From a bacterium (lineage in GTDB: Bacteria > Joyebacterota > Joyebacteria > Joyebacterales > Joyebacteraceae), in NCBI GenBank assembly GCA_025782395.1, contig JALGZD010000120.1:44607-108606 (forward strand): 64,000 nucleotides of DNA, read 5' to 3'. The notes beneath the pieces are model-generated. The model was not told the origin of the DNA. It made no database searches and was given only the letters and a program-made list of their open reading frames with translations. Made by a program: the position numbers and the translations under genes. The stretch's first letter is position 1, and each line of letters starts with the position of its first letter. Shown in pieces: positions 4,120 through 64,000 of this stretch.

Positions 4120-5292
4120 CTAGAGGTTCTTCCTGAGCCATTCGGTCTTCTGGTGACTCAGTTTCATGAGATCGCGCCCGTTCGCGATCTTGCTCCCGCC
4201 CGGATCTATCGCGGCGATGCGCTCCGTGCAGCTGTAGCAGGGATCGATGACGGCGAAGATGAGCGTCGCGTCCGAGATAGTCTCGCCTTTCACGCGCGGC
4301 CGATAAGACGGAATATTCAGGAAGGTCGGCGCTCTCATCTTGTGCCGCTCAGGCATGTTCGTGCCGTTGGATCGGATGAAGTGGAAACACTCCCCTCGCG
4401 GCGCCTCGATACGGCCGATACCCTCTCCCCGGGGAATCTCGCGCACCTCGTTCCTGATCTCTCCCTTGGGCAGCTTCTTGATGCATTGCTTGATGATCTT
4501 GGTTGCTTCGATCATCTCGAGAAGCCTGACGACTCCTACCGCAAGACAATCGCCGTCGGGCTGAACTATCACGTCCCAGTCGACCTCGTCGTACGCGCCG
4601 TATGGCTCGTCGCGCCGGACGTCGATATCGACACCCGAGCCCCTCGCCGTCGGACCAAGGACCCCGTACGCAATCGCGTCCTCTTTGGTCAGAATACCGA
4701 CTCCCTTGAGACGACCGAGTATGACTGGATCATTGAGGATGACGTTGATAAGCATACTGGTCTTCTCCGCAAACTCGTCCATCGATTTCAGGACGGGCGG
4801 CCAGACCTCATCGGGGACATCGCGCCTGACACCGCCGGGGCAGTACCACGCGTAGTTGTTCCGGTTGCCCGTGATAGCCTCGAGCGCATCGAGAACCGGC
4901 TCACGGTACTTCCAGCCCCACATGAAGATGGTCCAGTATCCGATGATGTGTCCGGCGAGACCCACCCAGAGCATGTGACTGTGGAGCCGCTCCAGCTCGT
5001 GGACAATGGTCCTAAGATACCGCGCCCTGTCCGGCACGGTGATCCCCACGATGTCTTCCATCGCCAGTGTGGCGGCCCAACTGTGCGAAGCCGAGCAGAT
5101 ACCGCAGATCCGCTCAACCAGGAACACATCCTGATCGAACGTCTTCTCCTGCGCCAGGAGCTCCATCCCCCTGTGGATGCGCCCAAGCTCTATGTCGGCG
5201 CTGACTACGGTTTCTCCCTCAACCTGCAGGGTGATGTACTCAGGCTCCTCGAGGACGGGATGGAATGGTCCGATGGGAATAGTAGTACTCAT
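4120..5292 (-). CDS. group 4 [NiFe] hydrogenase large subunit (MbhL/EchE/NuoD-like)
   Basis: Catalytic subunit of a membrane-bound [NiFe] hydrogenase, facing the cytoplasm, expected to reduce protons or oxidise H2. All four nickel-ligand cysteines are present: RICGICSASH (C63 and C66) and DPCYSCTER (C352 and C355). This separates it from Complex I NuoD and from sulfane reductases of the MBS type, which lose ligands. The DPCxxCxxR ending with about 35 further residues is the group 4 pattern. Length is 390 residues. Its ATG directly abuts the TAG of the NuoC-like gene (TAGATG). Neighbours supply the NuoB-like small subunit, NuoH-like anchor and antiporter subunits. Confidence 0.95.
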   Translation of the reverse strand: MSTTIPIGPFHPVLEEPEYITLQVEGETVVSADIELGRIHRGMELLAQEKTFDQDVFLVERICGICSASHSWAATLAMEDIVGITVPDRARYLRTIVHELERLHSHMLWVGLAGHIIGYWTIFMWGWKYREPVLDALEAITGNRNNYAWYCPGGVRRDVPDEVWPPVLKSMDEFAEKTSMLINVILNDPVILGRLKGVGILTKEDAIAYGVLGPTARGSGVDIDVRRDEPYGAYDEVDWDVIVQPDGDCLAVGVVRLLEMIEATKIIKQCIKKLPKGEIRNEVREIPRGEGIGRIEAPRGECFHFIRSNGTNMPERHKMRAPTFLNIPSYRPRVKGETISDATLIFAVIDPCYSCTERIAAIDPGGSKIANGRDLMKLSHQKTEWLRKNL

Positions 5293-5721
5293 CTACTCAT
5301 CTCTCCTCATTGGATGGAAATCCGCCGGCCTGTCGTGAGAAGAGAGGATCTTGCGCGGATCCGGGTGGCCGACGAACTCGACACCCAGGAAGTCAAAGAT
5401 CTCTCGCTCGATAAAGTCCGCGGCAGGGTAATACTGTGTAAGCGCTTCTATCTTCGGGAACGGCTTATCGAGAGTGGTCCTGATATTCACCACCGTGCCC
5501 TCACGATCGAACGCGAAATGGTACAGAAGTTCCACCCCTGTCGACCGGTCACTCCCCGTTGCCGTCGTAAGCCTCCCACCCTCCACCTCGTACATGTGCC
5601 GCAGCACAGTCATCCAGTCGTCGTTCGAGACCGCCACGTATGCCCGTTTCGGGCTGTGCTCGTGGATATCCACGCGGTCTCCGAACTTCGTCTTCAAGTT
5701 CTCGAGAACCTGCTTGCTCAT
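5293..5721 (-). CDS. hydrogenase subunit of the NuoC/MbhK/EchD family
   Basis: A 142-residue soluble protein of the 30-kDa NADH-dehydrogenase/hydrogenase family, which bridges the large subunit and the membrane arm without binding a cofactor. The C-terminal half has the family signature EREIFDFLGVEFVGHPDPR followed by ILSSHD, matching NuoC ERExxDxxGxxFxGHPDLRRIL. The middle has the typical YHFAFDREGTVVNIRT strand. It begins with ATG at 5721 after a 75-base spacer that holds a GC-rich hairpin, and it abuts the large subunit gene. Confidence 0.9.
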   Translation of the reverse strand: MSKQVLENLKTKFGDRVDIHEHSPKRAYVAVSNDDWMTVLRHMYEVEGGRLTTATGSDRSTGVELLYHFAFDREGTVVNIRTTLDKPFPKIEALTQYYPAADFIEREIFDFLGVEFVGHPDPRKILSSHDRPADFHPMRRDE

Positions 5722-5752
5722 CGTCTCGTCACTCCCCGAGCCCGGGCTTCGA

Positions 5753-5770
5753 GCGGCGATCCTGCGCCGC
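5753..5770 (-). other. GC hairpin in the spacer between NuoB- and NuoC-like genes
   Basis: A perfect 6-bp inverted repeat GCGGCG/CGCCGC with a 6-base loop lies in the 75-base spacer between the small-subunit gene and the NuoC-like gene. There is no U-tract, so it is not a standard terminator. A role in mRNA processing or stability is inference only. Confidence 0.35.
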
Positions 5771-5796
5771 GATTCCGACCGCGCTCTCCTGTCTCA

Positions 5797-6210
5797 CTAG
5801 AGCTTCCCCATGAGCTTCACTACCGCGCCGATGATCGCCTCAGGACGCGGTGGACACCCTGGGACGTACGCGTCAACCGGGATATGTTTGTCGACCGGTC
5901 CCGCGAAGTTGTACCCATCCTTGAAGATCCCGCCCGTGCACGCACATGCCCCGATAGCTACCACCGCAACAGGTTTAGGTGCCTGCTCGTATGCTTCGAT
6001 GAGATCGGGCATGACCTTTCGTGGTACGCTGCCCGAGACGAGAAGCACGTCGGCGTGCTTCACGCTACCAACCAGCTTCATACCGAAGCGCTCTATGTCG
6101 AACTTAGGGCACAGACAATCGAGAACCTCAATGTCGCAGTTGTTGCACGCACCCGCGTTCAGGTGAAACACCCACAGCGATTTCTTGAATCCCCATTTGA
6201 TTGCGTCCAT
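5797..6210 (-). CDS. [NiFe] hydrogenase small subunit (NuoB/MbhJ/EchC-like)
   Basis: A 137-residue subunit that carries the [4Fe-4S] cluster next to the NiFe site. The four ligand cysteines are visible: CNNC (C22 and C25), the Cys in GACACTGG, and PGCPPRPE near residue 119. The length is that of the group 4 (single-cluster) small subunits. I chose the ATG at 6210 (MDAIKWGFKKSLWV), which has GGGGAG just upstream. A longer TTG start at 6243 would overlap the NuoH-like gene and add a non-conserved 11-residue extension. Confidence 0.93.
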   Translation of the reverse strand: MDAIKWGFKKSLWVFHLNAGACNNCDIEVLDCLCPKFDIERFGMKLVGSVKHADVLLVSGSVPRKVMPDLIEAYEQAPKPVAVVAIGACACTGGIFKDGYNFAGPVDKHIPVDAYVPGCPPRPEAIIGAVVKLMGKL

Positions 6211-9480: not shown

Positions 9481-10326
9481 TTAGAATGGATCCTCGAACT
9501 TGGCAACTTCCGCCGCTGTCATGACGGGTCCATCCTTACAGATGTAGAGTTCGCCCATCATGCAGTGCCCACACTTGCCAAGTCCACAGCTCATGTTGCG
9601 CTCCATCGAGTGGTAGATGCTCTCGGGCTTGAAACCTTTCTCAAGGAGTGCAATGTTGACGAACTTCAGCATGATCGGCGGGCCACAGACGCACGCGACG
9701 GCCGTTTCCGCGCTGAATGGTGATTTGCCAATGTCCGCGGTGGTAAGAAGAGGTAGATCGTCGAGAAGCACCGTGACGACACCTACTTTGCCGGTCCAGT
9801 TGTCGGCCGGTTCGTCGATCGTGAGCAGCACCTCGGTGTTCTTCATCTTCTCCCATTCGCCGAGAAGATCCTTGAAGATGATGTCTTCGGGTGTTCTTGC
9901 TCCGTAGCGGATGGATATCTTCTTGTAGCGATCGATGTCATCGAAGAGCGCCAGAATAAGTGACCGAAGCGGCGCCAGTCCAACGCCACCGCCCATTATC
10001 AGGATCTCCTTGCCGTCGAAGTCGGCCATGTTGTAACCGTTGCCGTACGGTCCCCTGATCCCGACGGTGTCTCCCACCTTCATTTTGGTGAGAGCGTGCG
10101 TCACCGTGCCGACATCCATGATCGTGATCTCCATCGTCTCCGTGATGTTGGGGTTCGACGACGGCGTGAACGGGGCCTCTCCAACTCCGGGCACCGTCAG
10201 CTCAACGAACTGGCCGGCCCCGAAGGTGAGCGGCTCCTTCGGGCGGAACCTGTAAGTTGTGATGTTCGGGGACTCCTGCTTGATGTCCTCGATCACACTC
10301 TCGATTGGCCTGTAGAGGTTCTTCAT
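9481..10326 (-). CDS. hydG: sulfhydrogenase gamma-type FAD/NAD(P)H oxidoreductase (HydG-like)
   Basis: A 281-residue flavoprotein of the ferredoxin-NADP reductase fold, as in the gamma subunit of Pyrococcus sulfhydrogenase and AsrB. The FAD-binding domain occupies about residues 1-100 (FGAGQFVELTVPG, EAPFTPSS), and the NAD-binding domain starts at MGGGVGLAPLRSLI near 111. A C-terminal [2Fe-2S] motif, CGLGKCGHC then C (about 248-264), is intact. It should exchange electrons between NAD(P)H and the iron-sulfur chain. Its ATG overlaps the stop of the HydB-like gene by 4 bases, so the two are coupled and probably form a heterodimer. Confidence 0.92.
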   Translation of the reverse strand: MKNLYRPIESVIEDIKQESPNITTYRFRPKEPLTFGAGQFVELTVPGVGEAPFTPSSNPNITETMEITIMDVGTVTHALTKMKVGDTVGIRGPYGNGYNMADFDGKEILIMGGGVGLAPLRSLILALFDDIDRYKKISIRYGARTPEDIIFKDLLGEWEKMKNTEVLLTIDEPADNWTGKVGVVTVLLDDLPLLTTADIGKSPFSAETAVACVCGPPIMLKFVNIALLEKGFKPESIYHSMERNMSCGLGKCGHCMMGELYICKDGPVMTAAEVAKFEDPF

Positions 10327-11390
10327 GCCTTTGACATCTCCGTGACGACGTGCTTGATAGCTTCTCTCATATCGATCCGACCCATGCAGACGTCAATGCA
10401 CCTGCCGCAGCCGGTGCACGAGACCGCGCCGTACCTGTCGCGTGAATACTCCAGCTTGCAGCGGAGGCGATTCTCAAAACGTTGCGCCAGATTCGGCCTT
10501 GAGTTGCCACCACCACCCGTCCTCGCATAGCCGATGGACAGGCACGTGTCCCAGTTCCGCGTCCGCTCGTAGCCGCCCTCCGCCCTCTGGTCCACAAGGA
10601 GGAAACACGTGCACGATGGACAGACACGATTGCAGGCTCCACAACCGACGCAGTTCTGCGTGACATATGCCCACGCATCCCGGTCGCTCCCCAGCTCGTG
10701 CTTGTCATACGGTACGTCAACCGCATACTGAGCGTTCTGACGCTCTACTGCCGCGGTCACCGATGCCCGGCTTCTGGTCCGTTCATCCTCGTGGCCTGAA
10801 TCGACCGGAGTGAAGAGATCGTCGCTCCCATCGAGGAGTTTCTCCCCCTTTTCGGAACCCGTCGTGAGGATGTATCCGGACTCAAGCGGAGAAATGTTGA
10901 GATCGAACCCGTCCTCGGCGTAGGGCTGTCCGCCCATCATCGTGCAGAAACAGGTCTCCTTCGGCGCGGTGCAGTCGACCGAGACGAGGATTGTGTTTCG
11001 GCGCTTCTCGACGTAGAATGGGTCGTCATACTCCTCCGAGAAGTGCTTGGTGCTCCAATAGACCTTGTCGAACTTCTCGAGGCCGTTAAGATCGCACGCC
11101 CGCGGACCCACGACGATCGTCGCGGGCGCCTCCACGTTCGCCTCAGGATCGCTGCTCGGGTATTTCGCGACCACCTCACGCGCATAGAAGAGGAATGTCT
11201 TCGGGGACTGCGCCGGGCACGCCCCGTGGAGTTCAAGTTTCTCGGGAACCTCTTCCTTCACAAGCTCGTAGTCGGGTGTCTCCGGATTGTTCATGATGTC
11301 GAATGTGACCGGGACGTAGACCCTCTGGTTCCTGGCCCAGCGCCCGATCAGCTTGAGGAGGTTCTCTCGTCCGATGAAGACTTCTTTCAT
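10323..11390 (-). CDS. hydB: sulfhydrogenase beta-type iron-sulfur subunit (HydB-like)
   Basis: A 355-residue protein of the 4Fe-4S dicluster family (HydB/AsrA) that passes electrons between the flavin subunit and the partner enzyme. Family markers are the N-terminal VYVPV segment, VGPRACDLNGLEKFD near residue 125, and two cluster motifs, CVGCGACNRVCP and CTGCGRCIDVC, in the last third. I chose ATG 11390 (MKEVFIGRENLL); a longer start at 11447 adds 19 poorly conserved residues. It is the first gene of the hydrogenase operon and is preceded by a leader of about 360 bases. Linking HydBG to a group 4 hydrogenase implies an NAD(P)H-connected complex. Confidence 0.92.
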   Translation of the reverse strand: MKEVFIGRENLLKLIGRWARNQRVYVPVTFDIMNNPETPDYELVKEEVPEKLELHGACPAQSPKTFLFYAREVVAKYPSSDPEANVEAPATIVVGPRACDLNGLEKFDKVYWSTKHFSEEYDDPFYVEKRRNTILVSVDCTAPKETCFCTMMGGQPYAEDGFDLNISPLESGYILTTGSEKGEKLLDGSDDLFTPVDSGHEDERTRSRASVTAAVERQNAQYAVDVPYDKHELGSDRDAWAYVTQNCVGCGACNRVCPSCTCFLLVDQRAEGGYERTRNWDTCLSIGYARTGGGGNSRPNLAQRFENRLRCKLEYSRDRYGAVSCTGCGRCIDVCMGRIDMREAIKHVVTEMSKA

Positions 11391-15495: not shown

Positions 15496-17925
15496 CTAAT
15501 CCTCGATGACTACGCGCGCTACACCCACCACCCTGTCCCCGGAGCTCAAGTTTATAACTCTCACTCCCTGCGTGTTGCGTCCAATCAGCGAAATCCCGCC
15601 GACGGGAAGGCGAATCATGATTCCGTTGGCTGTCATTATCATGACGTGGTCGGTCTCATTAACAATGTGGACCGCCACCACAGAACCATTTCTCTTGTTG
15701 GCCTTGATCGATATGACCCCCTTGCCACCGCGCTTGATGATGCGGTAGTCGGAGATCTTCGTTCTCTTTCCGTAGCCGTTCTCGGTGATCGAGAGAACGG
15801 TTCCCTCCTCACCGACGACGACCGCCATATCGACGACCTCGTCGCCCTTCGCGAGCAGTGTACCACGCACACCGCGTGCCGCGCGACCCATCTCGCGCAC
15901 ATCGTTCTCGTGGAAGCGAATGGCTTTCCCGAACTTCTTCGTCAACAGGATGTCGTGGTTGCCGTCCGTCACCGCGGTATCGATAAGCTTGTCACCGGCA
16001 TCGATGTTCATCGCCCGGATGCCGCCTCGTCTCGGGTGTGAGAAAGCCGACAGACGTGTTTTCTTCACTACCCCGTTCCGGGACGCCATAATGATGAAAT
16101 GGTCATCGTCGAACTCCCGGATCGGCACAAAGGCACGAATATGCTCGCCCTTCCCAAGCTCCAAGATGTTCACAATCGCCTTGCCCTTCGCCGCCCGGCC
16201 CGCCTGTGGGATCTCGTGCACCCTCAGCCAGTGGCAATGACCGGACTGCGTAAAGAACAGAATGTAGTCGTGCGTCGAGGCGATGAACATGTGCTCGACG
16301 AAATCATCCTTCTTCGTCCCCATGCCCGCAATGCCCTTCCCGCCACGCCGCTGTCTGCGGTACGTACCGACAGGAAGGCGCTTGATGTAGCCGGAGTGCG
16401 ATATCGAGATGGCCATATCCTCTTCGGCGATCAAGTCCTGTATCGTGAAGTCCGTCGTCGCATCGACTATCTCTGTGCGGCGCTCGTCGCCGTATGCCTC
16501 GACTGCAGTCTCCAGATCGTCCTGGATTATCCCGTGTACCTTCATCCGGCTCTCGAGAATGCTCTGCAGCGTGGCGATGAGCTTGATGGTCTCCTTATAT
16601 TCGTCCTCGATTTTCTTCCTCTGAAGCCCCGTGAGCCGCTGAAGCCGCATGTCGAGAATGGCCTGTGCCTGGATCTCCGAGAGCTTGAATTTCTTCATGA
16701 GACCCGAGCGCGCGGTGTCCACGTCCTTCGCCGCTTTGATGAGCTTGATGATCTCATCGATGTGGTCGAGCGCCTTCCTCAGCCCCTCGAGGATGTGCGC
16801 CCGCGCTTCGGCCTTCGCGAGCTCGAACTTCGTGCGGCGGATGATGACCTCCTCACGATGCTCGATAAACGCGTCGATCATCTGCCGGAGCGTCATGACT
16901 TTCGGCTCGCCGTTCTTGAGCGCAAGGAGGATTGCGCCGAACGTCGTCTGCATCTGCGTGTGCTTGTAGAGCTGGTTCAGGACCACGGCCGCCATTGCCT
17001 CGCGCTTGAGGTCTATGACGATGCGCATGCCGTCACGATCCGACTCGTCCCTGATGTCCCGGATGCCGTCGATCTTCCCGCCCCTGACAAGGTTCGCCAT
17101 CGCCTCGATCAGGTTCGACTTGTTTACCTGGAACGGGATTTCGGTGACGACGATGCACTCCGCACCGTTCTGGTGCGTCTCCACATTCGCCAGCGCGCGC
17201 ATGACTATCCTGCCGCGCCCGGTCGTGTAGGCGTCTCGTATCCCGGCACGGCCAAAGATGATCCCGCCCGTCGGGAAGTCCGGCCCTTTGATGATCTTGA
17301 AGAGCTCGGTGTCGGGAACGGAAGCATCTTCCATCACGAGCTTGACCGCGTCGGCCAGTTCTGTGAGATTGTGCGGCGGTATGTTCGTCGCCATCCCCAC
17401 GGCGATGCCGGATGCTCCGTTCATCAGAAGGTTCGGTAGGCGCGCGGGAAGCACGACCGGTTCCTGCCGCGTCTCGTCGTAGTTCGGCACGAAATCTACG
17501 GTGTCCTTCTTGAGGTCAGCCAGGAGGTCTTCGGCCGTCCGCCGAAGGCGCGCCTCCGTGTACCGCTCTGCTGCCGCCCTGTCTCCATCGATCGAACCGA
17601 AGTTGCCCTGGCCTTCGACGAGCATGTAGCGGAGTGAGAAGTCCTGAGCCATCCGGACCATTGCGTCGTAGACGGCCGTCGTCCCGTGTGGGTGGTAGTT
17701 GCCGGTGACGTCGCCCGAGATCTTGGCGGACTTTCTGTAGGGCTTGTTGTGCGCAAGTCCTAACTCGTCCATCGCCACGAGGATGCGCCTCTGAACCGGC
17801 TTAAGCCCGTCCCTGACGTCGGGGAGAGCGCGCGACACTATCACGCTCATCGCGTAGGCGATGTACGACTTTTTCATCTCGTCTTCTATGATGACGGGGA
17901 GTATGCGTTCGGTCTGTTGTGCCAT
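15496..17925 (-). CDS. gyrA: DNA gyrase subunit A
   Basis: An 809-residue type IIA topoisomerase breakage-reunion subunit. The catalytic tyrosine is in RYTEARL (near residue 125), the N-terminal [25 protein letters not shown] region (in part) is typical, and the GyrA-box QRRGGKG near 545 identifies gyrase rather than topoisomerase IV. The C-terminal third has six beta-pinwheel repeats that wrap DNA. It follows gyrB by 16 bases, and the CDF-HflK fusion begins 63 bases after its stop without an evident terminator, so read-through is likely. Confidence 0.97.
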
Positions 17926-53373: not shown

Positions 53374-53982
53374 ATGAAGACAAAGAACACGAGAACCCGA
53401 AACAATGAGGACGGCGACAGGAACGATGAACACGTCGAGCGACTCCTCAAAGAGCTTGAGCCTGTCGAACTTCCGCCGTTCTTCAGAAGCCGGCTGCTGG
53501 CGCGGATCCGGATGGAAGAGCAGCGCCCGTCCTGGATCTCCGCTTTTACCGGCCGCGGGGTTGGCTGGGGCGTTGCCGCGGCTTGCGCGGTAGCGCTTCT
53601 TGTCGTTATCGTTCACTTCAACACGACGCCTGCGCCTGTGGGAGCCGACCCACTCATCGTTGACGCGAGCGGTACCACAATCAGTCCGCTCATGCCGGTG
53701 GACAGCTCCTACGTCGGAGCTGGGGACGTACAGATTCTGGCTTCGATCGATCCCCCTGTCAGGGGCGGGCTCATCAGGCTGTTCGTTGACGGCAGGGACG
53801 TAACGGGCTTGGCGGAGGTAGCCGAGAGCTACGTCATGTACTCGCCCGGCGAGAATCTGGGCGAGGGTGAGCACATTGTGAGCATTCAGATACGGGACAC
53901 GTCAGGTGCTGTCCTGAGAGATGTCTCGTGGCTCTTCAATACGATGAACGGGAGCCGAAAGAGACCCGACGAGCGCGTGTAG
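53374..53982 (+). CDS. predicted anti-sigma factor with an Ig-like outer domain
   Basis: A 202-residue single-pass membrane protein. The cytoplasmic part (1-62) has a helical segment LLKELEPVELPPFFRSRLLA like anti-sigma domains but no zinc HxxxCxxC motif. One helix at 65-82 follows. The extracytoplasmic part (90-195) is an Ig-like fold: ISPLMPVDSSYV, ILASIDPP, LFVDGRDVTG, GEGEHIVSIQI, LRDVSWLF. The same motifs occur in the outer-membrane protein at 50442-52679. Its place right after the sigma gene supports the function. ATG 53374 has GGGGAGG eight bases upstream. Confidence 0.75.
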   Translation: MKTKNTRTRNNEDGDRNDEHVERLLKELEPVELPPFFRSRLLARIRMEEQRPSWISAFTGRGVGWGVAAACAVALLVVIVHFNTTPAPVGADPLIVDASGTTISPLMPVDSSYVGAGDVQILASIDPPVRGGLIRLFVDGRDVTGLAEVAESYVMYSPGENLGEGEHIVSIQIRDTSGAVLRDVSWLFNTMNGSRKRPDERV

Positions 53983-54065
53983 CGTGTGTGATGCGGGCCG
54001 GCGGACGCCGCCCGCCGCGAAGCCGGCCCCGGGTCGGATCGACGCCTTCGCAAGGAGAGGACACT

Positions 54066-56180
54066 GTGAAACGAAGACACAACACACCCGGAACACGGAG
54101 AGGACACGCGCCGCCAGGCGTCATTCTGACAGTCGCGATCGCGATACTCTGCCTGTCGTCCACGTCGGTGTCGGCGGACGAGGGGCTGAGCGTTCTCGTT
54201 TCACCCAACAGGGCGTACGCCTTGCCCGACGGCCGGGTACAGTTCACAGCGACCGTGCTCGATGCCGCAGGCCGCGAGGTTGCAGCTGATCTCACCTGGA
54301 GCGTCATCCCATCGCGGGCAGGTCTGATCTCGCCCGACGGCCTGTTTACGTCGCTGGGAGTGGAGGGGAAGGGTGTGGTGAGAGTTGTGGCAACGTATGC
54401 ACAGGAGATGGGCGCCGGACATGCGGTTATTGAGGTGGGAAGCGAGCCTCCGCTTCGTCTGTCTGTCGTAGTGCGGCCGCCCAGGGCGGCGTTCGGGCAG
54501 GGAGAGACGGGCGGGTTTGATGCCATCGTCACCGATTCAGCGACGGGCGTGGTCGTACCGGCCGATCTCACATGGATGGTCGTTCCCGATTACATTGGCA
54601 CGATCGACGAATCCGGCTCCTTCGCAGCAGCGGGGGAGGCAGGCGCTGGTCGGATTGTTGTCCGCGCTCTCCATGAGGGCCGGGAAGGTCTGGGGGATGC
54701 AGGCATCGTGGTCGGCGAGACCAGCGGGCCTGGCGTCAAGATCCGGGTGATTCCTCGCCACGCCCTGTTGCGTCCCGGAGAGGAGAGCCGGTTCCAGGCT
54801 CGCGTGACGGATTCCGCGGGCGACCCGCTTGAGGTGGAGGTTGACTGGTCGGTCATTCCGGCGAGACTTGGTCTCATCAACGACGAGGGACTCTTCACAG
54901 CCGGCCGCGACGACGGCGTAGGACGCGTCATCGCAAGCGTCGTGACGGAGGAAGGTCCCATTCGGGACATGGTGCTCGTGGAGGTGAGGCGACCCGGTCC
55001 CGGAGGAGTCAGGATCGCTCTGACGCCGGGGCAGGTAGCGCTGGCCCCCGATGGCGATGTTCAGTTTGAAGCAACGGTCATCGGTCCCGAAGGAGATGAG
55101 CTTGAGATTCCCGTCGATTGGAGGGTCCGCCCCGACTGGCTCGGGAGCATCACGGCCGACGGGTTCTTCACTGCGTCCGCCGAGTTCCCGGAGCCGTCCG
55201 CGAACGGTGGGTGGATGGGAGGCGTTGTCACCTCAATTGAGACCGGTGACGGCGTGGTGGCGGAAGTGGCACGCGTGTTCGTCCGGGAGGGCGGGCCGCC
55301 GCTCAGACTCGACATCAGACCTCGCCAACCGCGCGTCGCGCCGGGCGAGGACATTCAATTCGAAACCGAGGTGGTGGGCGCCGGGGATTCAACTGACTGG
55401 ACCACTGAGTGGGCCGTTTTCCCTGCGAATCTCGGCACCATCACCCCGGATGGTCTCTTTACTGCTAACCCGACTTTCGGCGATCCCGGCTCCAGCGAGT
55501 TCGGACCGCACGAAGGTGTTGTCGCCGCACGAGCGACTCTTTCTGACGGGTCGGTGCTGACCGATCTGGCTCATGTCCGGGTGAGACTGCCGGGTCAGAC
55601 GGTCAGGATCCGCGTGAGCCCGCGGTACGCCGTGGTTCCGCTCAGCGAATCCCGGCAGTTTGAAGCAACGGTCATTGGAACGGGCGGCGAACCGCTGGAG
55701 GCGCCGGTCAGGTGGACGGTCGTGCCCAAGAGACTCGGGATCATATCACCTGATGGTGTTTTCACGGCGGCGGACGTGCCGATAGATCCCGGAGAGTGGC
55801 AGAGGCCGCACGGCTACATCATCGCGGAGGTGAGTGTCCCCGGCGGGCACGTTTTCCGCGGCGTTGCCGTGGTCGTGCTGGACCTGCCCGACCCGCAGAT
55901 TCGCGTTCATGTGACACCACGCTCGGTAACCGTAGAGCCTGGCGCATCCGTCGGCTTCCACGCGGAAGTGCTCGACATGGAGGGCAACCCTGTCGATCTG
56001 CCCATTCTCTGGCATGTTGCAGATGCGGCCATGGGGACCATCGGGCCGGACGGAGTCTTCACCGCCTCAGGCTCGGTTCCTGCGGGGGGCTCGCACTCGA
56101 CGCGGGTCGTGGCTGGTGTGACCTTCAATGGGCGCACCTATTGGGATTTCGCGACAGTCCACATTGCGGTCTATCCGTAG
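54066..56180 (+). CDS. secreted protein with seven Ig-like (Big-type) repeats
   Basis: A 704-residue exported protein: signal peptide (GVILTVAIAILCLSSTSVSA, about 19-38) and then seven repeats of about 90 residues. Each starts with a strand such as VRIRVSPRYAVVP, then FEATV or FTATV, a W-x-V-x-P segment, and closes with LGxIxxDGxFTA. This is the pattern of bacterial Ig-like (Big_2-like) surface repeats. There is no catalytic or anchoring motif. GTG start at 54066 with AAGGAGAGG upstream lies 83 bases after the anti-sigma gene; a longer in-frame start overlaps that gene and is rejected. It is likely a regulon member and may be surface-exposed. Confidence 0.85.
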   Translation: MKRRHNTPGTRRGHAPPGVILTVAIAILCLSSTSVSADEGLSVLVSPNRAYALPDGRVQFTATVLDAAGREVAADLTWSVIPSRAGLISPDGLFTSLGVEGKGVVRVVATYAQEMGAGHAVIEVGSEPPLRLSVVVRPPRAAFGQGETGGFDAIVTDSATGVVVPADLTWMVVPDYIGTIDESGSFAAAGEAGAGRIVVRALHEGREGLGDAGIVVGETSGPGVKIRVIPRHALLRPGEESRFQARVTDSAGDPLEVEVDWSVIPARLGLINDEGLFTAGRDDGVGRVIASVVTEEGPIRDMVLVEVRRPGPGGVRIALTPGQVALAPDGDVQFEATVIGPEGDELEIPVDWRVRPDWLGSITADGFFTASAEFPEPSANGGWMGGVVTSIETGDGVVAEVARVFVREGGPPLRLDIRPRQPRVAPGEDIQFETEVVGAGDSTDWTTEWAVFPANLGTITPDGLFTANPTFGDPGSSEFGPHEGVVAARATLSDGSVLTDLAHVRVRLPGQTVRIRVSPRYAVVPLSESRQFEATVIGTGGEPLEAPVRWTVVPKRLGIISPDGVFTAADVPIDPGEWQRPHGYIIAEVSVPGGHVFRGVAVVVLDLPDPQIRVHVTPRSVTVEPGASVGFHAEVLDMEGNPVDLPILWHVADAAMGTIGPDGVFTASGSVPAGGSHSTRVVAGVTFNGRTYWDFATVHIAVYP

Positions 56181-57727: not shown

Positions 57728-58525
57728 TCAGGGTGCGACGCGGGCAGTGTCGGCCACGGTAAGTCCAAACAGGCTGAGCGTATCGTAGTACGAGACAGTG
57801 AAGTACCCCCACCCTGCGCCTACGACGTTCCCGTTGGTCCCAGTGCCGGGGTATGGTCCCGCCACAGCGAGCACCTTGCCATCGAGTTCACCAGCGAGAG
57901 TAATCTCAGCAGGTTCAAATACTGCGTTCGTGCCGGTCGTTGTTTGCGACAGGATGATGGAATCGCCACGCGCTCCCCTGATCACACACTCTACTTTATA
58001 GTAGTCAGCGTCCTCCGCCGTCGCCCACTCGACGAACAGCGTGTCTCCGAGAGCCACATCGTTCGCCTGGACAACGCTGAACGCCCCCGGGACCGGCTCA
58101 CCCGCCGTCGCAAAGCCCCACTCGGTCGTTACCTTAAGAGAACAAACCTGGCCATTCTGCCAGAGGATGGCATCTTCTTCGAGGGTCGCAACCAGTCCGA
58201 GAGGATCGCCGACACTGATCTCTGAGATGGAGCGGTCACTCACGGACACGACGAAGATACCCGGGAGTGGATCCGAGGTGCAGAAGACTCTGACCGAGAC
58301 GCGGTCTCCGCCGGCGAGTCGGGTTTCAAGAACGCTGGCGCCGATGAACGGATCACCTTCGTTCTCATCGAGGGGGCAGACGATGTCGTCGCTGCACCCA
58401 GGGAGAAGGGTTGCTGCAAGAAGCACTGCACCCGCGAATGCTGCGGAGGCGACTGCAGGACGTGAAGCGGCCTGACGGGAGCCTACCGCAAGCCACATGG
58501 GTATCATCCTTATCGAGAGGCGCAT
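57728..58525 (-). CDS. lipoprotein with fibronectin/Ig-like domain, unknown function
   Basis: A 265-residue predicted lipoprotein. Signal peptide with lipobox LLPGC (Cys at about residue 44) after a long basic start. The mature part has a first beta-rich region (50-130) and a second (145-240) that looks like a fibronectin type III or Ig-like fold (SVVQANDVALGDTLFVEWATAEDADYYKVECVI in part). No enzyme motif is visible. It begins 6 bases after the PLP decarboxylase gene, so the two share an operon. Function unknown. Confidence 0.7.
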   Translation of the reverse strand: MRLSIRMIPMWLAVGSRQAASRPAVASAAFAGAVLLAATLLPGCSDDIVCPLDENEGDPFIGASVLETRLAGGDRVSVRVFCTSDPLPGIFVVSVSDRSISEISVGDPLGLVATLEEDAILWQNGQVCSLKVTTEWGFATAGEPVPGAFSVVQANDVALGDTLFVEWATAEDADYYKVECVIRGARGDSIILSQTTTGTNAVFEPAEITLAGELDGKVLAVAGPYPGTGTNGNVVGAGWGYFTVSYYDTLSLFGLTVADTARVAP

Positions 58526-58531
58526 CGCAGG

Positions 58532-59890
58532 CTACTCCAGTCCTGAGAACGGCTTCTGGCCAAACATAATGTCGGCGTGCTCTCCGCGTTCCCTGATGAG
58601 CGTCGCCTTTCCATTCAACACGAGGATTTCGGCTGCGGACGGATGCGAGAGGAACCTCAAGGGACTCATCGAGTAACCGTAGGCACCGGCATTGAAGATG
58701 CCGATGAGGTCGTCTATCGCAATACTGTCGGGGGCCTTGATCTCCTGACTCATCACGTCGATGGGCGTGCAGAGCGGCCCGGTGACCTTTGCGCTCACCG
58801 CCCCGGGCTGCCCGAGCTTGTTCACAACGGCGGCTTCGTGATGGACCTTCATGAGCATAGGGCGGACAAACTGGTTGATGCCGCCGTTGGTGATAACGAA
58901 GCGCTCTCCCCTCGACTCTTTGAGCTCGATCACGCGTGACAGATACACGCCGCATTCCGACACGAGGATTCTGCCCAATTCCAGGAGAAGACGGAAGCCC
59001 TCACGTTCGGAGTAAGGAGCGAATACTTCCTCAACGACCGCGCCGAGAGCAGGCAGGTCGAGCTGCTCCTCCTTTTCGTAGTGCGGTACGCCGAGGCCGG
59101 CGCCGAAATCTATCGACTCGAGCTTGCCGCCGATTATCTCCTCGACGCGACGCGCGGTTGCGACCGTACGTTCGGCGCTCGCGACTATCTCGTCCGGGTG
59201 TAGGATCTGACTTGCCGTGTAGACGTGCACGCCCACGATGTCGATCATCTTCCGGTCCCAGTGATCAGGAAGATCACCGAGCTTCTCCTCATCGATTCCG
59301 AACTTGCTCGGGCCGCCGGCCATCTGCTCGTGCAGTGGGCCGGTCGATCCGCCGCCGACTTTGGTCAAACCGTCAGCCGTGTTGATTCTCAGCGCCACAC
59401 GCGCCGGGACGCGGAGCAGTCTCGATATGTGCGATATCCGCTCGAGCTCTCTCAGCGACTCGACATTGATCGCGAAGATCCTTGCCAGGATGGCATCTTC
59501 CAGTTCGCGGTCGGTCTTGCCGGGTCCGGCGAACACGATATCGAGAGGATCGAACCCGATCTCCCTTGCAACGAACAACTCCCCGCCGGATGCGAGCTCG
59601 ACGCCTGCCCCGAGTTCCATGAGGAGCCCAACGAGAGCAACGGATGGATTCGCCTTCATCGAATAGAGGATCTCAAACGATGGGAAGGCGGTCCTGAGGG
59701 CGCGGAAGCGCTCGCGGATCCTGTCGCCGTCGTAGACATAGGTCGGGGTCCCGAACTCCCCTGCGAGCTGTGTCACGGGGATTCCGCTGATCTCAAGTAC
59801 GCCGTCGTTCTGCGTGAAATTCCTGAGCAGTTGTTCCTCCTTGCCGCTATCTCTGGACGGATCTTCGTAGAGAATATAGCACGCGATCAA
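58532..59890 (-). CDS. PLP-dependent fold-III decarboxylase (LysA/BtrK family)
   Basis: A decarboxylase of the alanine-racemase fold (452 residues from the TTG at 59890). The PLP lysine is K79 in YSMKANPS, and the PLP-phosphate segment GAGLGVPHY and the C-terminal GAYGYSM are present. Canonical diaminopimelate decarboxylase has CESGD; this protein has GPLCTPID (C374), as in BtrK-type and exosortase-associated decarboxylases, so the substrate may be a carrier-bound or other amino acid rather than diaminopimelate. No Shine-Dalgarno precedes the TTG, while AAGGAGG lies five bases before an in-frame CTG at 59830, so the true start may be there. Confidence 0.85.
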   Translation of the reverse strand: MIACYILYEDPSRDSGKEEQLLRNFTQNDGVLEISGIPVTQLAGEFGTPTYVYDGDRIRERFRALRTAFPSFEILYSMKANPSVALVGLLMELGAGVELASGGELFVAREIGFDPLDIVFAGPGKTDRELEDAILARIFAINVESLRELERISHISRLLRVPARVALRINTADGLTKVGGGSTGPLHEQMAGGPSKFGIDEEKLGDLPDHWDRKMIDIVGVHVYTASQILHPDEIVASAERTVATARRVEEIIGGKLESIDFGAGLGVPHYEKEEQLDLPALGAVVEEVFAPYSEREGFRLLLELGRILVSECGVYLSRVIELKESRGERFVITNGGINQFVRPMLMKVHHEAAVVNKLGQPGAVSAKVTGPLCTPIDVMSQEIKAPDSIAIDDLIGIFNAGAYGYSMSPLRFLSHPSAAEILVLNGKATLIRERGEHADIMFGQKPFSGLE

Positions 59891-59954: not shown

Positions 59955-61394
59955 TCACCTAAGCACGACGATCTTCCGTTCGAGTTCGCAGGCCCCGATG
60001 CGCACCCTCACGAAGTAAACGGCGCTCGCGACCGCGCTGCCCCGGTCGTCGCGGCCGTCCCACGCGAGCGACGCCGCGCCCGCCGGGAAGGGCCGGTCCG
60101 CAAGCACGCGCACGAGCCTTCCCGTCACGTCGTACACGGCCGCGCGCACTCGACCTGCTCCCGGAAGCTGGAAGGCCAGAGCGCAGTCTCCACTCGAGGG
60201 GTTCGGATGTGCCGAGAGACAGAGAGACGCTGCGTCGTCGGCCGGCTCAACGGCGGTGACATCGTCTCCCACCACGAGGAGATCGTGCGGAGGCAGTGAC
60301 GCGCCGATGGGTCCTGTTGTGAGCTGGCCCCCGTCGCTCAGATCGAAGACGCGGATGCCGGGCGACACGTACGTCCTGTCCGCGAGAAACAGCTGCCCGC
60401 TTCCCTCATGCACCTCCACGTCCATCACGTTGTAGCCACCCGGTTTCCACACGTTGCTGATCTTCTCGCCGGTCGACCAGTCGAACGCGACGCAGAACTG
60501 CTCCCAGGATGGAGACAATGTCGAGATAACCGCGTGCGCGCGACCGGACACGGGCAGGGTGAAGTCGTAAAGATCGCCGCCGAGCTGTGCCTCGGTCGAC
60601 ACGACTCGGACGGCCTCGAGCGCGACGGGATCGACCTCGACGATGCCCCCGTCGAGCGGACCCCAACGCGCGCTGCACGCTACGTAGAGAAAACCAGTGT
60701 CTTCGTCGACCAGGATGTCCCTGTAGGGATTGGTGGCAGGGAGTTCGATGCCCTGAACGCCGGGCGATACGGTGTCGACGTCTACCAACTCGTTCGTCGC
60801 CGTGTCGATGACGGCGAGATAGGATGGCGGGACGGGGATCCAGTAGTAATCCCGGTCCAGGCGCTGCACCGCCACGAAGAGAAGCCCGCCGCGAAGAGCC
60901 ATGCCCGACATCTCAGGCAGACCGTCCGCATCGGCCAAAGGCGACAGGTCGACGGAATCGGTCACGGCGCCGGTGGTCGGGTCGACCTCGTAGAGAATCG
61001 CGCTCTCGTTCCTGGAGACGTACGCGCGGCTCTCGGACACGAACGCCATGTCGTGCGGGTTGCTCCCGGGACCGACCGAGAATTGCAAGATTGTGGCGAA
61101 GTCCTGCGACGGATCGAGGACCTGGATGTTGTCCCCGTAGAGATGGTTGATCACATAGACGAGCCCGTCGTGGTACCGGGCGTCCGCGTCACTGTGAATG
61201 GTCGCCACGGGGTCGTCCACGCTCCACGGCGGGACGACGTCTGCAACCGACACGCGTCCACTGACGTAGTAGTCCGAGTTTACGGAGACAACGTAGTCCC
61301 AGGGAGGTCCCGCGCCCTCTCCCGACAGCGGCACGAGCGCAACTGTGGTGAGGATGGCAATGAACATGAAGCGGTGTCGTCTCGTGCGGTCCAT
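59955..61394 (-). CDS. beta-propeller protein with FlgD-like C-terminal domain (BtuG-like)
   Basis: A 479-residue exported protein. The signal peptide (residues 8-28) precedes a beta-propeller (about 30-380) with YncE/YVTN-type blades (GLVYVINHLYGDNIQVLDP, GSNPHDMAFV, AYVSRNESAILYEVDP, YNVMDVEVHEGSGQLFLAD). The last 85 residues are a FlgD/Por-type Ig domain: HPNPSSGDCALAF, VYDVTGRLVRVL, WDGRDDRGSAVASAVYFVRV, and a basic end. Such domains often act as secretion or attachment signals. It starts 16 bases after the BtuB-like gene (ATG 61394, GGAGAAAG upstream), so both are under the riboswitch. By context it may capture cobalamin at the surface, as BtuG does. Confidence 0.8.
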   Translation of the reverse strand: MDRTRRHRFMFIAILTTVALVPLSGEGAGPPWDYVVSVNSDYYVSGRVSVADVVPPWSVDDPVATIHSDADARYHDGLVYVINHLYGDNIQVLDPSQDFATILQFSVGPGSNPHDMAFVSESRAYVSRNESAILYEVDPTTGAVTDSVDLSPLADADGLPEMSGMALRGGLLFVAVQRLDRDYYWIPVPPSYLAVIDTATNELVDVDTVSPGVQGIELPATNPYRDILVDEDTGFLYVACSARWGPLDGGIVEVDPVALEAVRVVSTEAQLGGDLYDFTLPVSGRAHAVISTLSPSWEQFCVAFDWSTGEKISNVWKPGGYNVMDVEVHEGSGQLFLADRTYVSPGIRVFDLSDGGQLTTGPIGASLPPHDLLVVGDDVTAVEPADDAASLCLSAHPNPSSGDCALAFQLPGAGRVRAAVYDVTGRLVRVLADRPFPAGAASLAWDGRDDRGSAVASAVYFVRVRIGACELERKIVVLR

Positions 61395-61410
61395 GCTGCT
61401 TTCTCCTTGA

Positions 61411-63504
61411 TTACGGTGCTTCCACAAGTAGCGTCACAGAAAGCGTTCTCCCCGGAAGCGGGTAGCCCTCGACATCGACGATGCGCTCGTCGGTCAGATT
61501 CCGAACCTCGAGCGACAGCGACAGCGTGCCGGGGACCAGGTAAATGCTCCCTCCCACGTTGTGAACGTGTGACGAGGGACTCAAGTTTTCCACGAGGTTC
61601 GCCTGGTCGCGGTAGGCCTCTCCCTGGTGGTGATACTCGTGCCAGACTGACTCCCCCGTGCCCCCTTTCCACTGGGTTCGTACGAAGAGGTCATGCCGGG
61701 GCTCGTATGGGAGCCTCTTCCCGCTGTACGTCGGGGAAGGACCTTTGTTCCTCGCGTCCTGGAACGTGTAGGAGGCCGACAGGCTCAGGCCCGCCTCCCA
61801 CGAACAGCGCGCAGTGAGCTCGATCCCCTCGACGCTCGCGGACTCCAGGTTGAACGCCTTGACCGTCCGCTGCGAGTTCTGAAGGAAGACGATCAGGTCG
61901 TCCCGCTCGGCCCGGAAGAGGACCGCCTCGAGGAAGGCGCCTCCGGAGGAAGACGGATCAGACCTGAGCACGATCCCGACGTCCGTCGTAGTTCCCTCCT
62001 CCGGTGACAGCTCGGTGTTTCCCTCGATGAACCCGCTTGCCCCGAAGAGCTCGATCATCGACGGGAACCGGGCGAAGCGCGTCCGGTTGGCTTTCAGCGT
62101 TACCCTTGGATGCAGGCGTATCCGCGCGCCGAAGTAAGGGCCGTGGAAGTCCGCGCGATGAGCTTCCGTGAGCGGCTCGGGAGGTCCCCCGAAGGGGACG
62201 GGCCCCGTGTAGTTGTCGGCCGATTCCTGATACCTGTACCCGGCCACGAATTTGAGTCTACCGCCCAGGAGAAAGAGCTTGTCCTCCGCAGACAACGAAT
62301 ACGCAGTGCGCTTCCTCGTGAAGCCCACGCCGATGGCCGGATTCGAGCTCTCAGGTATGAAACGCTCGCGCCTGAACTCGGCGAACAGGTTCAGCGACTG
62401 GTGCGCGGCGTGCCAGTCGAAGCCCGAGAGCAGATTCGCACCGTAGTTCCAGCTCCTGTCGTCCCAATCGGACCTGTCGAAGCCGACCTCGTCGTCCGGG
62501 TTGTAGAAGCGCTCCCGCCTGGTGACGTGGAAGCCCGAGATCCTGCACGAGAGCCTGCCTCCCGCGGCGGGCGGGGGTTCAACGGAGATGCGCGCGGTGT
62601 TCCGGAAGATCCTGTAGTGCACGCTCTTGATGTGTACGTTCTCGATCCCGGGAACACCGCTCCGCTTCCAGAAAGCATCGTTCGATCCTTCGATCTTCCA
62701 CCCGGCCCGGGGACCGGTGTCGAACCTCACGAGGAGATCGCTCTGTCTGAAGTTATTGTTCTCCCTCGCAACTACCTCGTCGTCGTCCGCGTTCTCGGGC
62801 GTGCCGTGGCGGTCGAGGTATTCGAAGTCGCCCTCGCTCTGGAGGTGGTGGAAGACGACGGTGTAGTCGAGCGCGGCTTCGCGGTCGCGAGCGGCACCGT
62901 CTGTAGCGGCACCACTGGTAGCGGCGCAGCCTCCCGTCGGGAGCCCGAAACTCCCTGAGCGGAGGAGGTCGATTCTGAACGTCTCGTAGCTACCGGCAGA
63001 CAATACCGCCGCAGCCCGGCCCGCGCCGGGCGAGCGCGTGACGAGATTCACGACGCCGCCTATCCCGGGGCTTCCGAACTCCACGGGCGCTCCTCCCCTG
63101 TAAACCTCGATGCGCTCCAGGCTGTCGAGCGGGAGATCGGCAAGGTTGGTCGCTCCGTAGCTGACGGAGTTCATCGGGACGCCGTCCACATAGATCTCGA
63201 CCTGTCCGGGCGAACTCGCTCGAATAGAAGCGGTGCTGTATGCCCCGAGCCCGCCGTATCGCCTCACGTGGACACCGGCGCCCCTCTCGATAACGTCTGT
63301 CACGGTCGAGACGCGGCCGAGTTCGTCCGCGATCTCGTGGACGGTCGCGAACGTCGCCACGATCTCGAGCTGCTCCGGGCGGTCGGAGACGACCTCGAGC
63401 GTATCGACGATACCGGTGAGCGGGGCGGGCTGGATGTGATCATCCGCGACGGCGGGAGAAACCAGAAGGAGGACGGTGAGAATGCATGTGAAACGACGCC
63501 CCAT
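61411..63504 (-). CDS. btuB: TonB-dependent outer-membrane receptor, BtuB-like
   Basis: A 697-residue TonB-dependent receptor. Signal peptide (1-20), a TonB-box-like DTLEVVSDRP (E. coli BtuB has DTLVVTAN), a plug domain (about 45-155: RYGGLGAYSTASIRASSPGQ, VYVDGVP-type VEIYVDGVPMN, GVVNLVTRSPG) and a 22-strand-type barrel to the C-terminus, ending in TLLVEAP. The cobalamin riboswitch upstream makes vitamin B12 or another corrinoid the likely substrate. ATG 63504 has GGGGAGGAA upstream; longer starts would run into the riboswitch region. The propeller gene follows. Confidence 0.92.
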   Translation of the reverse strand: MGRRFTCILTVLLLVSPAVADDHIQPAPLTGIVDTLEVVSDRPEQLEIVATFATVHEIADELGRVSTVTDVIERGAGVHVRRYGGLGAYSTASIRASSPGQVEIYVDGVPMNSVSYGATNLADLPLDSLERIEVYRGGAPVEFGSPGIGGVVNLVTRSPGAGRAAAVLSAGSYETFRIDLLRSGSFGLPTGGCAATSGAATDGAARDREAALDYTVVFHHLQSEGDFEYLDRHGTPENADDDEVVARENNNFRQSDLLVRFDTGPRAGWKIEGSNDAFWKRSGVPGIENVHIKSVHYRIFRNTARISVEPPPAAGGRLSCRISGFHVTRRERFYNPDDEVGFDRSDWDDRSWNYGANLLSGFDWHAAHQSLNLFAEFRRERFIPESSNPAIGVGFTRKRTAYSLSAEDKLFLLGGRLKFVAGYRYQESADNYTGPVPFGGPPEPLTEAHRADFHGPYFGARIRLHPRVTLKANRTRFARFPSMIELFGASGFIEGNTELSPEEGTTTDVGIVLRSDPSSSGGAFLEAVLFRAERDDLIVFLQNSQRTVKAFNLESASVEGIELTARCSWEAGLSLSASYTFQDARNKGPSPTYSGKRLPYEPRHDLFVRTQWKGGTGESVWHEYHHQGEAYRDQANLVENLSPSSHVHNVGGSIYLVPGTLSLSLEVRNLTDERIVDVEGYPLPGRTLSVTLLVEAP

Positions 63505-63508
63505 GGGT

Positions 63509-63537
63509 TCCTCCCCAATGACCGACCGGTGGGAGGA
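63509..63537 (-). promoter_or_regulatory. hairpin that can hide the btuB ribosome-binding site
   Basis: On the minus strand TCCTCCC (63531-63537) can pair with GGGAGGA (63509-63515), which is the Shine-Dalgarno sequence of btuB, with a 15-base loop. It lies downstream of the riboswitch and would suit translational control. Confidence 0.5.
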
Positions 63538-63637
63538 GTTCCCGCGGGGCGCCGTCATGCATGCCGGGTGGAGCAAGCGCTCGCGCAGTCGACTCGCACG
63601 CTCGTCTCTCGGTCTATCCACGGACCGACGAGCACTC

Positions 63638-63795
63638 CCACCGGCAGGTACTCTGGCTCTCGGATCGTTCTACTACCCAAGAGACCGCGCTATCCGAGCG
63701 CGGCCTCCAAGGGTTCGTCCCCGACTACAGTTGCGGGACAGCACCGGTTTTCGACCGGTTTTCCCTGAACGGCCTTTCGGCGCCCGGTGAGATCA
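63638..63795 (-). promoter_or_regulatory. cobalamin (AdoCbl-type) riboswitch
   Basis: On the minus strand the conserved core reads GGGAAAACCGG, then GGTGCTGTCCCGCAACTGTAG (21 bases; the key part is CCCGCAACTGTA at 63727-63738), and the 3' element AGCCAGAGTACCTGCCGG (63641-63658, matching GCCAGGAGACCTGCC). Order and sequences match the cobalamin riboswitch. It stands 135 bases before the BtuB-like gene. Ligand binding should turn down expression when B12 is plentiful. The 5' boundary is approximate. Confidence 0.9.
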
Positions 63796-64000
63796 GTGTC
63801 TGTGTGAATCTACGGCTTCCGGAGCCCGCGGTCAACAAGGAAGAGCCCGCGCGGGCACGGTCCGCCTCGCTCAAGCAACGATTGTGATGATACTATCTAC
63901 TCTTAGGGCATATGTCCGGTGAGTGATCTTGCACCGGTTGTGCGCCTCTGTCAGGAGGTTCCTGGAGCCTCACTCCACGGGTCCTTCGAGAGCGTCCAGG
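63796..64000. other. unassigned sequence upstream of the riboswitch
   Basis: No gene or RNA is supported here. It should contain the promoter of the btuB operon; I see AT-rich TAGTAT and TATCAT elements near 63885-63897 but no clear -35. Confidence 0.3.

Follow-up and report, generated by a model that had tools for sequence, protein, structure and literature searches.

The window, a stretch of 64,000 nucleotides of bacterial contig JALGZD010000120.1 (assembly GCA_025782395.1), carries on its minus strand a cobalamin riboswitch, then the gene for a BtuB-like TonB-dependent receptor, P0002, and then the gene for a secreted β-propeller, P0001, whose start lies 16 bases beyond the receptor stop codon. 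The features of this locus, in window coordinates, are:

63626..63803, minus strand: cobalamin riboswitch, Rfam RF00174, 5' of the receptor gene (45.9 bits, gathering score 31.5, E = 2.5e-8)
61411..63504, minus strand: gene for the BtuB-like TonB-dependent receptor P0002, 697 residues from its ATG (plug and barrel domains, profile, fold)
63385..63405, minus strand: TonB-box-like stretch DTLEVVS, receptor residues 34–40 (read from the translation)
61852..61881, minus strand: receptor residues 542–551, QNSQRTVKAF, aligned gap-free to the BtuB2/BtuB3 loop taken as EL8 (alignment, conserved neighbours)
59955..61394, minus strand: gene for the secreted β-propeller P0001, 479 residues from its ATG (open reading frame read from the sequence)
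61311..61394, minus strand: predicted Sec signal peptide of P0001, residues 1–28 (end approximate), without cysteine (sequence, hydrophobicity)
60258..61310, minus strand: predicted seven-bladed β-propeller domain with a BtuG-like fold, residues 29–379 (AlphaFold2, Foldseek, VIA-align, profile match to BtuG chains)
59958..60230, minus strand: C-terminal FlgD_ig/Por-like domain, residues 389–479, a predicted type IX sorting domain (FlgD_ig, family profile)

A preliminary description of this DNA had read the order riboswitch, BtuB-like receptor, propeller between 59955 and 63795. The layout is borne out by the Rfam match, the 16-base gap and the plug and barrel domains of the receptor; the end coordinate is not, as the riboswitch reaches 63803. 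RF00174 is the sole match to reach its gathering score in an Rfam search of the whole window, and an RNA search of the whole genome found no second cobalamin riboswitch.

The nearest solved relatives of the receptor are BtuB proteins, by profile as well as by fold. P0002 contains a TonB plug (Pfam, E = 3e-17) and a barrel (E = 3e-33). A profile of 49 receptors, made from an alignment (A4) of P0002 with 48 receptor frames, chosen from the 61 of full length in the related loci described below, finds BtuB1 of Bacteroides thetaiotaomicron as its best match (E = 4.9e-56), and both BtuB1 and Escherichia coli BtuB rank above 9gbc, which is XusA according to its entry title. Comparison of the receptor model with solved folds gives BtuB for all of the 14 highest PDB entries by Z. 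A phmmer search with the single sequence places 9gbc first and BtuB second, 9gbc being also the best match of the C-terminal part, and P0002 stays well short of the cut-off of the BtuB equivalog TIGR01779 (108.1 against 599.7 bits). The BtuB-like TonB box of the preliminary description is found in the string DTLEVVSDRP (residues 34–43), where the phmmer alignment to E. coli BtuB begins, at BtuB residue 6; its first seven residues are those that we take to be the TonB box. The receptors of six Gemmatimonadota- or Latescibacterota-type loci (L076, L081, L088, L092, L107 and L112) have an extra N-terminal stretch that, from the alignment, looks carboxypeptidase-regulatory-like.

The AlphaFold2 model of P0001 has a mean predicted local distance difference test score of 91.4 and shows seven blades, counted by hand from the DSSP assignment. 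The nearest solved folds are BtuG, which agrees with the BtuG-like propeller proposed earlier: the 11 highest PDB entries by Z in VIA-align are all Bacteroides BtuG, and in Foldseek BtuG occupies ranks 2–14 behind one archaeal propeller at rank 1, with XusB at ranks 15, 16, 18–20 and 22. A profile of the propeller family leads to the same protein, BtuG being the one propeller that it matches significantly in the PDB, with nine distinct BtuG-type chains at E = 5.7e-8 to 2.4e-7 and the next propeller family at 0.03. The single sequence of P0001, searched against the PDB, returned FlgD chains only, BtuG emerging with family profiles alone, and no Pfam propeller family is over its cut-off in P0001. 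Like its signal peptide, the fold is a prediction.

Conserved residues of the propeller gather on one face of the model. They were read from alignment A2, which holds 96 of 101 planned rows (L105, with a stop codon in the stretch, and L118–L121 are left out). When the model is divided by standard propeller topology into the face of the D–A and B–C loops and the opposite face, a division made after the alignment was known, columns that are invariant or at least 90% conserved number 26 among 105 residues of the D–A/B–C face, 18 among 182 strand residues and three among 55 residues of the opposite face. The two faces differ with Fisher p = 0.002, and one of 341 circular shifts equals this difference. 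The conserved face is taken to be that which binds B12 in BtuG, an assignment of our own. BtuG2 holds B12 in a central cavity facing BtuB, near Trp194 (PMC10404256). By residue counting in the profile alignment, Trp194 falls on the nearly invariant Gln177 of P0001, in the motif QRLDR (residues 177–181), so that the same spot is conserved with a different chemistry; the preceding segment, ADADGLPE in P0001 (residues 154–161), aligns with TMETGSTE of BtuG. P0001 has a net charge of −36, the median across 69 relatives of at least 400 residues being −29, and BtuG2 is reported to be acidic too, with a net charge of −18 (PMC10404256).

The pair recurs among relatives of its own genome and well beyond them. 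Among 20 genomes sampled from a single family of the phylum, 11 yielded a riboswitch, one in each; nine of these lie on the same contig and strand as a propeller match, 2.1–2.3 kb before it, and in the other two genomes (G013, G019) the contig stops within 1.9 kb, short of the expected receptor end. Three genomes (G006, G010, G017) have a propeller match without a detected riboswitch, the contig ending within 1.6 kb upstream in each, and in six (G001, G002, G003, G009, G016, G018) neither was detected. Of these six, G001–G003 and G016 lack a riboswitch or full-length propeller match although they are 96–100% complete (G002 80%); the pair seems to be lost or absent in some genera of the family.

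A wider set of 80 loci, from 143 confirmed places and a homologue search in which 120 of 565 matches were listed, carries the taxon names of its database records: 21 Eisenbacteria, 18 Latescibacterota or Latescibacteria, 11 Gemmatimonadota-type, nine Krumholzibacteriota-type, seven Deltaproteobacteria and five other named records are among them. Nine of the 80 are contigs that are also in the phylum sample, and the loci nearest to the window are Candidatus Eisenbacteria records, one of them Candidatus Effluviviaceae. A receptor frame lies directly upstream of the propeller in 75 of the 80 loci (phmmer with P0002, E ≤ 1e-5), at a median gap of 24 bases (range −80 to 738). Of the other five, L118 has no receptor that could be found, L084 and L085 start at a contig end, the receptor frame of L090 follows a riboswitch pattern and overlaps the propeller start, and in L120 the receptor is the next gene downstream. 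Contig ends cut the receptor or its upstream side in 14 of the 75, which leaves 61 testable loci, and 56 of these have a cobalamin-riboswitch signature that lies no more than 900 bp ahead of the receptor frame or overlaps the initial 450 bp of that frame, called by pattern alone in 40, by pattern and Rfam in 10 and by Rfam alone in six. The riboswitch lies farther upstream in four of the remaining five, and none was found in L056. Over ~1.19 Mb the pattern has 63 matches on the plus strand, 50 of them at receptor starts, and three on the other strand. RF00174 was found in 20 of the 23 distinct loci scanned with Rfam, a scan that did not include L121; the misses are L056 and also L102 and L116, whose contigs start within or just before the receptor.

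All three elements, riboswitch, receptor and propeller, are found side by side under the record names Eisenbacteria, Krumholzibacteriota, Latescibacterota, Gemmatimonadota or Gemmatimonadetes, Handelsmanbacteria, Deltaproteobacteria, Polyangiaceae and UBP15. Homologues are linked to cobalamin riboswitches and BtuB-like receptors at nearly all testable loci, and the earlier proposal of a possible BtuB–BtuG system outside Bacteroidetes was understated. Of the refuting outcomes named in the preliminary description, neither a fold unlike BtuG nor homologues unlinked to B12 genes was seen.

The propeller differs from BtuG in the way that it appears to be attached. BtuG is a surface lipoprotein (PMC6143338). 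The C-terminus of P0001 matches FlgD_ig at 27.5 bits, just above the cut-off of 27, and scores below the cut-offs of Por_Secre_tail (16.1 against 27) and the type A domain TIGR04183 (18 against 23); a family profile matches the C-terminal region of a PorU chain, 6za2, at E = 4e-6. The same genome encodes two core components of type IX secretion, PorU (536.6 bits, cut-off 420) and SprA (a summed 520.7 bits in one frame, against a cut-off of 200), which are over their cut-offs in 15 and 17 of the 20 phylum genomes respectively. By our own profile, whose lowest score is 41.9 bits, the domain is present in 61 of the 80 locus propellers; three end at the contig before it, and 16 are complete and lack it. 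It was found in none of the 80-locus records named Deltaproteobacteria, Proteobacteria, Polyangiaceae, Thermodesulfobacteriota or UBP15. A lipobox lies within 70 residues of the chosen start in 10 of the 16 domain-less propellers (L086, L094, L105, L106, L108, L109, L110, L114, L115, L116) and in four of the 61 with the domain (L057, L062, L063, L069); in these four it looks like part of a normal signal peptide. Within 45 residues the counts are eight of 16 and three of 61. Of the relatives in which the C-terminal domain is missing, most have a lipobox, so that a single lid module seems to be joined to different kinds of anchor.

Other tails are seen as well. L119 and L121 (both at 9926–11164), from genomes with SprA, encode BtuG-like propellers with dockerin-like EF-hand repeat tails (Dockerin_1, 23.1 and 21.0 bits, cut-off 22.9), possibly a third mode of attachment. 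L102 has a DUF4215-like tail (21.6 bits, cut-off 27). The propeller of L120 (9911–11422) has a tail of ~130 residues without family assignment and a weak DUF5074 match, and its locus has riboswitches at 5910–6137 and 16696–16923.

We consider it likely that the receptor and propeller work as a lid system of the BtuG type, in which a type IX C-terminal domain takes the place of the lipid anchor. Both genes would be expressed when B12 is scarce, the riboswitch presumably mediating their repression by the vitamin. The receptor would take its place in the outer membrane. The signal peptide would bring the propeller through the inner membrane and type IX secretion through the outer one, after which its C-terminal domain would hold it at the cell surface. 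There it would capture corrinoids with its conserved face, close on the outer face of the receptor and release the vitamin into the barrel for TonB-powered import.

The alternative that survives best accepts the propeller as a lid and has it anchored without type IX secretion, either with the FlgD-like domain merely adhesive or with the receptor alone holding the propeller. FlgD_ig does occur in proteins outside type IX secretion, and the C-terminal scores are near or below the curated type IX cut-offs, yet the family profile reaches the C-terminal region of PorU itself, and the distribution of SprA follows that of the domain. SprA is over its cut-off in all of the 15 genomes tested from the 61 domain-bearing loci, against three of the 16 with complete domain-less propellers (Fisher p = 3e-6), and nine tested genomes named Deltaproteobacteria, Polyangiaceae or Thermodesulfobacteriota have no SprA match. 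In favour of the alternative, four of the 16 domain-less propellers come from genomes with clear or partial SprA (L086, L119 and L121 over the cut-off; L094 with pieces of 165.8 bits, below it); L117 has a weak match and the other 11 have none. The association of SprA with the domain is what type IX anchoring predicts rather than proof of export, and shared descent contributes to it. The window's own genome (G000) also has 77 matches to the propeller query, two of the three listed covering the C-terminal domain alone, so that the FlgD/Por-like domain may be common to many of its proteins, and these may make up a large predicted set of type IX cargo. Anchoring by other means strikes us as unlikely. 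The preliminary description had named a non-lipoprotein with a FlgD/Por-type end, which would be attached differently from BtuG; the N-terminus without cysteine, the FlgD_ig match, PorU and SprA in the genome and the correlation of SprA with the domain all agree with this. The signal hydrophobicity score and lipobox scan were applied to relatives 86–89% identical to P0001 (L042–L044).

Still less probable, in our judgement, is that the propeller is a B12-regulated surface protein that captures corrinoids without docking on the receptor and, in the manner of the free scavengers BtuH and BtuJ, hands over its ligand transiently. Several surface B12 binders stand beside BtuG in Bacteroides loci (PMC10404256, PMC12751083), and at L118 the propeller directly follows the riboswitch, no receptor having been found in that locus; docking in the lid system that we favour is itself a proposal. 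Considered as a diagnostic, the EL8 loop offers only a hint, being of equal length to that of its BtuB counterparts but without an aromatic residue at the position of Tyr538 of BtuB3, from which EL8 was assigned by residue counting.

Genes beyond the propeller, scanned in 20 of the 80 loci, some of them chosen for frames that resemble transport operons, bear on the ligand. Corrinoid-uptake or adenosyltransferase genes follow the propeller in five (L088, L114, L117, L118, L121), including periplasmic binding proteins, ATPases and FecCD permeases for which BtuC models score best or near-best, below the cut-off; PduO- or CobA-type adenosyltransferases are above curated cut-offs in L088 and L121, and CbiZ lies downstream in L119. 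In the stretches scanned, the downstream genes of the other 14 loci are unrelated, two of these loci having tetrapyrrole genes (ALAD in L107, URO-D in L098). The L114 permease (4326–6131), which follows a lipoprotein-type propeller, is a frame of 602 residues with an N-terminal extension of ~286 residues that may be a fused binding protein. That the pair imports another ligand (a siderophore, as XusA–XusB does, cobalt or a corrinoid-like tetrapyrrole), with B12 acting only as regulator, is very improbable: XusB is of related fold, 9gbc leads the single-sequence searches and the window's own genome has no clear BtuC, but in the fold comparisons XusB and XusA come after BtuG and BtuB, in the receptor profile search 9gbc comes after BtuB1 and E. 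coli BtuB, and the genes downstream in other phyla include corrinoid adenosyltransferases, CbiZ and BtuC-like permeases.

Several observations weigh against a BtuG-type lid system. P0001 gives no match at E ≤ 1 to PF16819 (DUF5074), which we take to be the family of BtuG; among its relatives, L120 and L102 match it below the cut-off of 27.2 (15.7 and 12.7 bits). The hydrophobic N-terminus of P0001 has no cysteine and hence no lipobox. In the receptor, the loop aligned to EL8 has the same length as its counterpart, but the aromatic residue is not conserved. Users of B12 were also looked for in the window's own genome and its relatives: CbiC is absent from all 20 phylum genomes, NrdJ and QueG were not found in that of the window, FecCD appears there as a partial match of 30 bits with no clear BtuC, and of its B12-binding domains one is over the cut-off, in a frame that looks radical-SAM-like, and one is below. 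Because P0001 has neither the PF16819 match nor the lipoprotein N-terminus, we do not class it as BtuG, and the model proposed here has it likely act like BtuG. The evidence supports a real and recurrent pair, a BtuB–BtuG-like system beyond Bacteroidetes with a different anchor, for which binding and docking are proposed.

Neighbouring genes in the window are of other kinds. A gene resembling Orn/DAP/Arg (pyridoxal-dependent) decarboxylases (58532–59890, minus strand) begins 64 bases past the propeller gene. A decarboxylase follows the propeller in L043 too, the first scanned gene of L042 and L046 being another, so that the genes directly past the propeller vary even between close relatives. 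Further on, 57728–58525 (minus strand) encodes a protein of 265 residues that matches nothing in Pfam at E 1 and whose start, LLPGC, resembles a lipobox, and a long frame at 53928–56180 (plus strand) has repeated blocks resembling bacterial Ig-like repeats.

BtuG and lipoprotein-capped transporters have been called exclusive to Bacteroidetes, and competition in the gut has been suggested in print as the driving force. In excerpt, a 2023 survey of Gemmatimonadota mentions btuB and tonB, and no propeller was noted in it (PMC10581226). A literature search, with subscription papers and preprints outside its scope, found no report of such a pair outside Bacteroidetes and no type IX cargo serving as the lid of a receptor. 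On balance we lean towards the view that propeller-lidded B12 import is an old and widespread surface machine of several phyla rather than an invention of gut Bacteroidetes, and that its anchors are interchangeable: genomes with type IX secretion would use a domain of that system, most of those without it a lipid, and others dockerin-like or different tails. If the proposed model is true, the window would hold the first lid of a TonB-dependent transporter delivered through type IX secretion, and the existence of related lids in Eisenbacteria, Krumholzibacteriota, Latescibacterota, Gemmatimonadota and Deltaproteobacteria would make the catching of B12 at the surface, ahead of its transport, a general and probably old solution. 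The alternation of type IX domain and lipobox would then be a natural experiment on what keeps a transporter lid in place, and would bear on whether the lipid anchor and linker act as a hinge, as suggested for BtuB2G2 (PMC10404256).

Among known systems, XusA–XusB of Bacteroides, which serves siderophores, resembles the window pair in joining a TonB-dependent receptor to a β-propeller partner of related fold; its ligand differs, and by fold XusA and XusB come after BtuB and BtuG. We know of no cobalamin riboswitch at XusA–XusB. E. coli BtuB shares with P0002 the receptor fold, the TonB-box-like stretch and cobalamin regulation, and is not known to need a propeller lid. The closest likeness is to BtuB1G1, BtuB2G2 and BtuB3G3 of B. 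thetaiotaomicron, in the cobalamin riboswitch and the btuB gene adjoining a propeller gene (PMC10404256, PMC6143338), in a seven-bladed propeller nearest BtuG beside a receptor fold nearest BtuB, and in the acidity of the propeller and its conservation on the presumed ligand face. The window pair differs in standing outside Bacteroidetes, at 13–16% identity; P0001 lacks the lipobox, has the C-terminal FlgD/Por-like domain and has a longer blade-4 B–C loop with the conserved QRLDR motif, and neither the pocket tryptophan nor the EL8 aromatic is conserved. With respect to type IX cargo, P0001 falls under the curated type A domain cut-off (18 against 23 bits), but resembles such proteins in its C-terminal FlgD_ig/Por-like domain, in its hydrophobic N-terminus and in the presence of PorU and SprA in its genome.

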